DNA from: Gemmatimonas sp.
Lineage (GTDB): Bacteria > Gemmatimonadota > Gemmatimonadetes > Gemmatimonadales > Gemmatimonadaceae
Assembly: GCF_027531815.1 (NCBI RefSeq)
Contig: NZ_JAPZSK010000006.1
Coordinates: 248,001-312,000 of the forward strand
Length of the DNA stretch: 64,000 bases
Reading direction: 5' to 3'
The translations under genes were made by a program, and so were the position numbers. Below the pieces are notes generated by a model. That model made no database searches and was not told where the DNA came from. It saw only the letters and a program-made list of their open reading frames with translations. This document shows, in pieces, positions 54,836 through 56,913 of the stretch; within the stretch, counting starts at the first letter, position 1; the number at the start of each line of letters is the position of its first letter.

Positions 54836-54997
54836 CCTGGTTGGGGAGTAGCCGCCCGTGCCGGACACGGGAGCGGTCGACCGTCATCACGAGACGCGAG
54901 TCTCCGGTCGGCCGCGTGCGGAAGCATCCGCATTGCGCGAGACCACCGCACACTCTGTGTCGTGCGGTGTCGCGCTGCCCCTGGCGAGTCCACCGCA
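54836..54997 (+). ncRNA. Candidate yybP-ykoY manganese riboswitch
   Basis: The leader of the 156-residue gene contains the two conserved strands of the yybP-ykoY (manganese) riboswitch. GGGGAGTAG (54843-54851) begins it, and CCTGGCGAGTCCACC (about 54980-54994), matching the family's GGCGAGACC end, closes it. Between them lie a hairpin (CCGCCCGTG paired with CACGGGAGCGG) and the internal element CGTCATCA, followed by GAGAC GCGA GTCTC inside a GACCG/CGGTC stem. This is the arrangement seen in the structurally solved examples. An additional long hairpin (ACCGCAC with GTGCGGT) precedes the closing strand. The call rests on motif order and pairing by eye; a covariance search would settle it. Confidence 0.72.
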
Positions 54998-55006
54998 CGG
55001 CACCGC

Positions 55007-55018
55007 CCCCTGGAGGGG
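55007..55018 (+). promoter_or_regulatory. Hairpin covering the ribosome site of the 156-aa gene
   Basis: CCCC (55007-55010) can pair with GGGG (55015-55018), with loop TGGA, hiding part of the GGAGGGG ribosome site six bases before ATG 55025. It sits right after the candidate riboswitch and would make a natural expression platform. Confidence 0.45.
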
Positions 55019-55024
55019 ATGCCG

Positions 55025-55495
55025 ATGAACGAAGCGCTGGAAACACCGTGGCGCGGGCGTATGCGGTTGTTGTCTGCCGATCGTCACCTGCCGCGTCGCA
55101 ATGAGCCGCTCACCGAACAGGAGCGTGACGCCATCGAGGCGTGGCTCACCAACGGCTCGAACATCATCACGTACACGCGTGGCCGACCGACGCGCGAGGG
55201 GCGCCCGGTCTGGGTGGTCACCACGCAGGGGGTGCTCATTGCCACCCTCACCGATGAAGGATTCGACCGCGTGCGGGCGCGTGCACATTGGGTGCCGGCC
55301 GAGCACCTGCGGCGGGTGGACATGGTCACCGACGCCGAGTTGCCGATGGTACGCGTTGTGACCATCTCGCGCCGGTTCGTACTGCACGGTGTGGACGTGG
55401 ACAGTGCCGTGCGCTTTGTGGCGCTGGCCAAGGCGGCCATGGCCGCCAGCGAGCCACCGCGCCGTGGTGTTGCCCGGACCACGGAGCTGCGCTGA
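55025..55495 (+). CDS. Unknown protein under a riboswitch-like leader
   Basis: A 156-residue soluble protein that I do not recognise. Two parts can be seen: an N-terminal helical region (LTEQERDAIEAWLTNGSN) and a strand-rich middle (PVWVVTTQGVLIATLTDEGF, then RVRARAHWVPAEHLRRVDMV and VRVVTISRRFVLHGVDVDSA) ending in an alanine-rich helix. The layout resembles small bacterial PH-like folds. It has no membrane segment, so it is not MntP, TerC or UPF0016. ATG 55025 is chosen for its GGAGGGG site; ATG 55019 is an alternative. The stop shares a base with the ompH-like start. Confidence 0.78.
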   Translation: MNEALETPWRGRMRLLSADRHLPRRNEPLTEQERDAIEAWLTNGSNIITYTRGRPTREGRPVWVVTTQGVLIATLTDEGFDRVRARAHWVPAEHLRRVDMVTDAELPMVRVVTISRRFVLHGVDVDSAVRFVALAKAAMAASEPPRRGVARTTELR

Positions 55496-56118
55496 TGCGC
55501 CCCTCACCAAATCGGCGCAGCCACGCGCGGGACCTGTTGCGTCATGGAGTGGCCGCCGTGGCTCTCGCCTCCCTCGCGCTGGTGGGCGAGGCGCGAGCCC
55601 AGGGCACGTCGTCCTCGCCGCGCGCCAAGGGCGCCGCGCCTCCGCTTCGCGTGGCCGTGTTCAATGCGCGGGTGGTGTTCGACTCCATGCCCGAGCGCTC
55701 GGCGGCCGAGTCGGAGTTCGCTCTCGAGCAGGCGAAGGCGCGCACACTGCTCAGCGCCGCCACCGATTCACTGCGCGCGGCACTCGACGAGTTCGTACGC
55801 CACGAAGCGCGCCTGACACCGCGGCAGCGCGAGGCGACGGCCATGCATCTGCGCGCGCGCGAGCTGCTGGTGGAGGAAATGGCCGCCAATCTCGACCATG
55901 TGATCCTCACGCGGCAGGCCGAACTGCAGCAGCCGTTGCGCGAGCGAGTACGTGCCGCCGTACGCGCCGTGCGACTGCGTGCCGGCTATGACCTCGTGCT
56001 CGATCGCTCGAACGATCAGGTCATCTTCGACGCCGACGACAAGGCCGATATCACGGCGGCCGTGCTGCGTGAACTGCGGGAGCAAATGCAGATCGCCCGC
56101 TCACCGAACGGACGGTGA
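55495..56118 (+). CDS. OmpH/Skp-family periplasmic chaperone
   Basis: A 207-residue exported protein: signal peptide (ending GEARAQ), then the OmpH-type start of the mature domain (PPLRVAVFNARVVFDSMPER, with the family VavfnsrrVf pattern), a long coiled-coil of about 110 residues (ALEQAKARTLLSAATDSLRA through LRARELLVEEMAANLDHVIL), and the return strand GYDLVLDRSNDQVIFDADDK. Skp-like chaperones hold outer-membrane proteins in the periplasm. It is translationally coupled to the upstream unknown gene (TGATG), so it is probably under the same riboswitch-like leader. Confidence 0.85.
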   Translation: MRPSPNRRSHARDLLRHGVAAVALASLALVGEARAQGTSSSPRAKGAAPPLRVAVFNARVVFDSMPERSAAESEFALEQAKARTLLSAATDSLRAALDEFVRHEARLTPRQREATAMHLRARELLVEEMAANLDHVILTRQAELQQPLRERVRAAVRAVRLRAGYDLVLDRSNDQVIFDADDKADITAAVLRELREQMQIARSPNGR

Positions 56119-56163: not shown

Positions 56164-56913
56164 TCAGTCGCGGCGCCCCTGCAAGCGCGACAGCAGTCGC
56201 AGCAGCTCGAGATACAGCCAGATCAGCGTAACCATGAGGCCGAAGGCGGCGAACCACTCCATCGCCTTCGGCGCCCCCATACGCGCCCCTTCCTCGATGC
56301 GGTCGAAGTCGAGCACCAGATTGAGTGCCGCAACGCCGGCAATGGCCACATTCACGCCAATGGCGAGCCAGCTCGTGCTGGTGAAGTAGCCGACCTGCAC
56401 CCCGAAGAGCGACAGCAGGAAGGAGCCGAGGTAGAAGAGGCCGATGCCGATGACGGCGCCCAGCATCATGCGCTTGAAGCCGGCCGTCGCGCGCAGAATG
56501 CGCAGGCGATAGAGCACCAGCACTCCCGCTGCGACCCCGAAGGTGAGCAGCACCGCCTGCTGCGGCAGCCCGGCGAAGCGCGTGTTGTAGAGCGCCGAAA
56601 TGGCGCCCAGCAAGATCCCTTCCAGCGACGCATAGATGGGCGCGGTCCACGGCGCCCACTGGGGGCGGAAGCTGGTCACGAGGGCGAACACGAACCCGCC
56701 CAGGCCACCCACGAGCATGGCGGGCATGACCAGCTCCGGGCGGCCGCCAGCCACCTGTTACCAGGTCATCGTGGCCGAAAAGACCACGACGGCCAACAGC
56801 AGCATGGCTTTCCCAGCCGTCCCGGCCACGGTCATGGCGCCGGGAGAAACGAGGCCGAAGGTCTGGCGCGCCGTGTCCGCGAAGCGCGAAAGGACTGGAT
56901 TGTTGGTACGCAT
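56164..56913 (-). pseudogene. Bax inhibitor-1/YccA homologue interrupted by an in-frame stop
   Basis: In one continuous frame the sequence reads MRTNNPVLSRFADTARQTFG, then PGAMTVAGTAGKAMLLLAVV and VFSATMTW, then a TAA at 56758-56760, then QVAGGRPELVMPAMLVGGLG and six further membrane segments to the stop at 56164. Together 250 codons match the usual length and order of the YccA/BI-1 family, in which the equivalent position is normally a tyrosine (W-Y-Q), so one TAC/TAT-to-TAA change would explain it. The family encodes seven-helix membrane proteins linked to FtsH or calcium leak. A GTG just after the stop could restart a 196-residue product lacking the first helix. Sequencing error is possible. 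Confidence 0.78.

Follow-up and report, generated by a model that had tools for sequence, protein, structure and literature searches.

A two-gene operon in Gemmatimonas sp., encoding a predicted PH-fold protein and an OmpH/Skp-like chaperone, lies behind a leader that we read as a yybP-ykoY Mn(II) riboswitch. With a probability of roughly 0.8, this switch turns on the operon in response to abundant Mn(II) and belongs to a Mn-responsive regulon for envelope quality control. The locus lies within the window, that is, the whole 64,000-nucleotide stretch of DNA analysed here; its features are listed in Table 1, read from left to right. The start of the OmpH gene overlaps the stop of the 156-codon ORF (TGATG at 55495), which bears out the coupling proposed in the first-pass annotation, and the two overlapping genes would together yield a cytoplasmic PH-fold protein and the chaperone. 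Downstream, the gene of a Bax inhibitor-1-like membrane protein (56167-56754, minus strand) is convergent with the OmpH gene.

Table 1. Features of the riboswitch-led operon, in window coordinates.
Feature	Position	Strand	Basis or remark
Amidohydrolase gene, 3' end	54720	+	Start of the region
Leader, ~300 bases	Between the amidohydrolase gene end and 55025	+	
yybP-ykoY (Mn) aptamer	54836-54948	+	Covariance models R1/R2, covariation, invariant core
P1	54840-54844/54943-54947	+	
GGGGAGUAGC, 5' portion of L1/P1 core	54843-54852	+	At least 39 of 40 leaders
P2	54855-54871	+	
P3a	54873-54883/54905-54915	+	
L3	54884-54890	+	Seven bases, UCAUCAC
L3 adenosine	54886	+	Position of Mn-coordinating A41 (L. 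lactis)/A48 (X. oryzae); invariant, 52 of 52
P3b	54891-54904	+	
P4	54917-54932	+	
3' switch strand GCGAGACCACCGCAC (P1 3' side)	54937-54951	+	Contains invariant GCGAGACC
Competing arm, complementary to switch strand	54962-54975	+	Anti-P1 hairpin, about -25 kcal/mol, no U-tract
Alternative partner of competing arm (54957-54969) once P1 has formed	54991-55003	+	Constrained fold, prediction
Small hairpin over Shine-Dalgarno site (GGAGG, 55012-55016)	54998-55024	+	
156-codon ORF (predicted PH-fold protein)	55025-55495	+	No Pfam match; AlphaFold2, Foldseek, VIA-align
OmpH/Skp-like ORF with signal peptide	55495-56118	+	PF03938, 70.6 bits (cut-off 32.4)

Aptamer and conserved core

The leader is more stable than chance (fold z = -3.5), and the helices of its four-way junction, P1, P2, P3a/P3b and P4, covary. 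Across 40 leaders, two-sided changes were observed at 26 of the 33 pairs, with 94.7% of cells paired; covariation was 0.559 vs 0.169 in shuffles, none of 500 of which reached the observed value. When newly found members were added (52 leaders), two-sided changes rose to 29 of 33 pairs and pairing to 96.4%. The alignment was fitted to the model, and therefore slid controls matter; these paired just 32-41% of cells.

At least 39 of the 40 leaders preserve GGGGAGUAGC, CGUCA..AC, CGG and GCGAGACC, as well as the L1 strands GGGGAGUAG and GAGACC, which are nearly invariant in the 52-leader set. The L3 adenosine is invariant in that set, both E. coli sequences included. Crystal structures place the N7 of this adenosine on Mn (PMC6754395), and the L3 sequences used for comparison were drawn from the same source. 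The first-pass annotation had pointed to a 5' conserved strand and an internal element, which are indeed present (GGGGAGTAG at 54843-54851 and CGTCATCA at 54882-54889), and to an order of stable hairpins that was also recovered. Its choice of aptamer 3' strand, GGCGAGTCC at 54983-54991, had to be given up, as this stretch falls in the expression platform, is unconserved among relatives and reads GGCGATTTCC in the closest of them. The true 3' strand is GCGAGACC at 54937-54944, likewise preserved in at least 39 of 40 relatives, and E. coli mntP has GCGAGACCAUaUGCAC at the position equivalent to the 3' switch strand. We also considered the minimum-energy pairing of GGGGAGUAGC with GCUGCCCC as a conserved off-state and rejected it, since it is absent from the closest relative.

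Standard annotation passes over this leader. An Rfam scan of the window at gathering cut-offs returned tRNAs only; with the threshold lifted, RF00080 was the top riboswitch match in the window at 18 bits (gathering 45), its alignment running through GGGGAGUAGCCG and the L3 loop. The leader is also the best RF00080 match of the genome (E 0.013); second to it comes a site on contig C17 that is itself a riboswitch copy. E. coli mntP and alx are experimentally validated Mn riboswitches, and RF00080 of Rfam 15 at gathering misses both in K-12 (L104:3457-3576 and L105:2368-2502). The RF00080 score that the first-pass annotation had proposed as a check is therefore uninformative, and we dropped it as the deciding test.

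Two covariance models were built from the leaders themselves: R1 from seven Gemmatimonas leaders, with the structure hand-drawn from the four-way junction of the class, and the wider R2 from 40 leaders. R1 matched E. coli mntP (31.6 bits, 1.3e-6) and alx (26.1 bits, 2.9e-5) with no other match in 16 kb, and R2 scored them at 44.0 and 39.6 bits, respectively. Within the genus, R1 matched 11 of 30 genomes, and phylum-wide 31 of 395; R2 extended to 75 of the 395 phylum genomes and 32 of 138 genera. Judged from sequence, the leader holds a true aptamer of the yybP-ykoY (manganese) riboswitch class. It resembles the known members (RF00080; E. coli mntP/alx, L. lactis yoaB, X. oryzae) in its P1-P4 four-way junction, its L1 (GGGGAGUAG...GAGACC), its seven-base L3 with UCA and a 3' P1 strand that doubles as the switch strand, and it differs from them in having no U-tract terminator and in an output that is a PH-fold protein and an OmpH/Skp-like chaperone rather than a transporter. 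The initial proposal of this class with a non-transporter output is thus supported both by the comparison of nine relatives and by the cross-recognition of mntP and alx.

Genes behind related switches

Approximately 101 distinct leaders from Gemmatimonadota were sorted by their downstream gene. They precede TerC (about 30 leaders), HtpX (M48; about 25), HtpX and TerC in a single operon (19, in order-level relatives), an outer-membrane barrel (8, of which one follows a PH-like gene and one, L177, lies beyond the genus), an SPFH/Band 7 lipoprotein (5), a PH-fold gene with OmpH (5, plus one truncated by a contig end) and OmpH directly (4). Single leaders precede a P-type ATPase, a CDF efflux protein, a universal stress protein with two Usp domains (L118, G112:C4) and a gene whose type was not assigned. 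TerC, CDF and P-type ATPase genes are classical Mn riboswitch outputs, and their leaders therefore tie the family to Mn.

The genome that contains the window carries four copies, and all four switch-led operons encode envelope or envelope quality-control functions. In addition to the PH-OmpH operon, the switches precede the barrel gene on C17, htpX on C1 (24679-24819), where the Mn riboswitch is joined to a textbook intrinsic terminator, and, on C5 (296242-296379), an SPFH/Band 7 lipoprotein gene followed by that of a small outer-membrane-like protein, an arrangement of the SPFH type shared by five genomes in the genus. No aptamer was found in the 1.5 kb flanks of the two TerC genes of this genome.

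The barrel was modelled with a pLDDT of 79 as a signal helix and about 12 strands, resembling small outer-membrane channels of the KdgM/NanC kind. Close barrel loci carried the switch in 7 of 7 cases, and none of five distant barrel paralogues did. At one locus (L027, G021:C33), the Mn riboswitch, a PH-like gene and the barrel form a single overlapping operon, so that the PH-like gene partners either OmpH or the barrel. In several species (L021-L026), the barrel start is overlapped by an out-of-frame ORF that begins at an upstream ATG behind a fair ribosome site, possibly a leader ORF or a sign of a mis-set start.

By analogy with the class, Mn(II) is most likely the ligand and ON the direction of control. 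The yybP-ykoY fold could instead sense another metal or signal here, so that a cue other than Mn(II) governs the envelope genes: some variants of the motif may have altered specificity (review, PMC7266159), which would account for genes at odds with a Mn ligand, and the outputs at these loci are not Mn transporters. We regard this as unlikely, given that the L3 adenosine is kept in 52 of 52 leaders and the L1 strands are nearly invariant, and that the same type of aptamer in the same phylum lies upstream of TerC, CDF and P-type ATPase genes.

Expression platform and direction of control

At nearly all loci, an arm immediately downstream of the 3' P1 strand is complementary to it. In most TerC/HtpX leaders, the resulting switch hairpin (-28 to -51 kcal/mol) is followed by T-rich sequence, giving an intrinsic terminator, and P1 formation would prevent this terminator, making an ON switch. 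The envelope branch retains the switch hairpin, at about -12 to -39 kcal/mol, and has no U-tract after it. One HtpX leader (L042, G372:C423) has a very stable switch hairpin without a U-tract, unlike its relatives.

A search of the window leader for an intrinsic terminator found none. Because the U-tract is absent, control is probably translational and/or Rho-dependent, as in E. coli mntP, where ON control operates via translation and Rho without an intrinsic terminator (PMC11647493). Without Mn(II), the 3' switch strand would pair with the competing arm; Mn(II) would dock L1 (GGGGAGUAG/GAGACC) onto L3 (UCA) and so stabilise P1, and the freed arm is then predicted to pair with its alternative partner and break the ribosome-site hairpin. 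The partner site overlaps the 5' side of this hairpin, which covers the ribosome site as the first-pass annotation had described. Computed ribosome-site accessibility in the window leader was 0.39 free vs 0.35 with the aptamer, and a clear rise was seen only in some relatives; with results this mixed, we did not take accessibility as the rule across the envelope branch. As soon as the platform has been transcribed, the non-aptamer state is the more stable one in free folding, by about 11-24 kcal/mol, and switching would therefore have to be kinetic.

The missing U-tract and the mixed ribosome-site predictions would also be compatible with a real aptamer working in the OFF direction, with the envelope genes expressed less in the presence of Mn(II). 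This is improbable, because the competing hairpin takes the 3' P1 strand just as in ON switches and, where a U-tract is present, forms the terminator of the TerC/HtpX relatives; moreover, E. coli mntP shows that a switch without an intrinsic terminator can be ON (PMC11647493).

The PH-OmpH operon and a proposed role in envelope quality control

The 156-residue protein had no Pfam match and no PDB sequence match. AlphaFold2, run with six sequences, gave a model (pLDDT 81) with 22 disordered N-terminal residues, seven strands and a C-terminal helix. The solved structural neighbours of this model are PH domains (best Foldseek E 3.4e-4), and VIA-align returned Z values of up to 10.8 over about 100 residues, including 9.1 for the bacterial PH domain 3hsa. 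By modelled structure alone, the protein is a PH fold, outside any named Pfam PH/bPH family. It lacks a signal peptide and has a predicted cytoplasmic location, which conflicts with its earlier placement in a periplasmic unit. Five further genomes of the genus contain a homologue, and the leader is present at each of the six loci of the gene for which upstream DNA was available.

The OmpH protein of the window matches PF03938 over its full length, as expected of OmpH/Skp, and begins with a signal-like stretch as read from its sequence. Across the genus, OmpH proteins fall into two groups by identity to that of the window, one of 48-100% (ten genomes) and one of 26-32%. In the first group, 9 of 9 loci with sufficient upstream sequence carried the riboswitch, whereas none was found at any examined locus of the second. 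In the window's genome, the OmpH gene of the 26-32% group lies directly behind a BamA-like gene on contig C24 (BamA read from sequence); as that copy is BamA-linked, the window's OmpH, behind its riboswitch, is an extra paralogue. It is thus a putative dedicated second OmpH/Skp-like periplasmic chaperone. This strict link to a single gene clade, together with the covariation and the cross-recognition of mntP and alx, already refutes the reading of the leader as chance motifs in a GC-rich, hairpin-rich sequence with no riboswitch, which could appeal to the 18-bit RF00080 score and its E of 0.013 in the genome and to which we give a negligible probability.

A manganese-linked quality-control function of the PH-OmpH operon would fit these data, and the case for it is strengthened because the sister switches precede HtpX, SPFH and outer-membrane genes. 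With the HtpX, SPFH and barrel switches, the operon probably forms a regulon that meets the load which Mn-rich conditions would place on the outer membrane and on secretion. In B. subtilis, TerC proteins (MeeF and MeeY) co-purify with HtpX, FtsH, PrsA and flotillins of the SPFH family (PMC10246235), and the same kinds of genes, TerC, HtpX, SPFH and a secretion chaperone, stand behind Gemmatimonadota Mn riboswitches. Unlike the B. subtilis set, known from co-purification, the Gemmatimonadota link is a shared RNA regulator, and OmpH/Skp and the barrel are Gram-negative parts; the TerC/HtpX/SPFH/Skp-like set looks like a Gram-negative counterpart joined by RNA. More tentatively, and at somewhat less than even odds, Mn(II) riboswitches may be a master control of Gemmatimonadota envelope quality control (HtpX, SPFH, a dedicated Skp, an outer-membrane channel and a PH-fold partner), with the PH-fold protein and the barrel as new parts of Mn handling or of the Mn loading of exported proteins.

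The aptamer class is already known; what is new are the output genes, the transporter-free envelope regulon and its oversight by standard Rfam annotation. Mn riboswitch targets known so far are chiefly cation transporters. Our literature search, with key subscription papers outside it, found no report linking a yybP-ykoY riboswitch to OmpH or placing HtpX behind one, the hits for HtpX being incidental, and an earlier mention of HtpX in Dambach 2015 Mol Cell is possible. Since the curated Rfam cut-off misses the Gemmatimonadota switches as well as two textbook ones, Mn regulons are probably under-counted.

In this one genome, four switches place chaperone, protease, scaffold and outer-membrane genes, and no transporter, under a Mn sensor, which provides candidates for how Mn status couples to envelope assembly. 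Coming from an unrelated direction, the envelope switches agree with the B. subtilis finding that TerC proteins act at the secretion machinery together with HtpX, FtsH and flotillins. These results suggest that manganese is used to tune envelope protein quality control in these bacteria.
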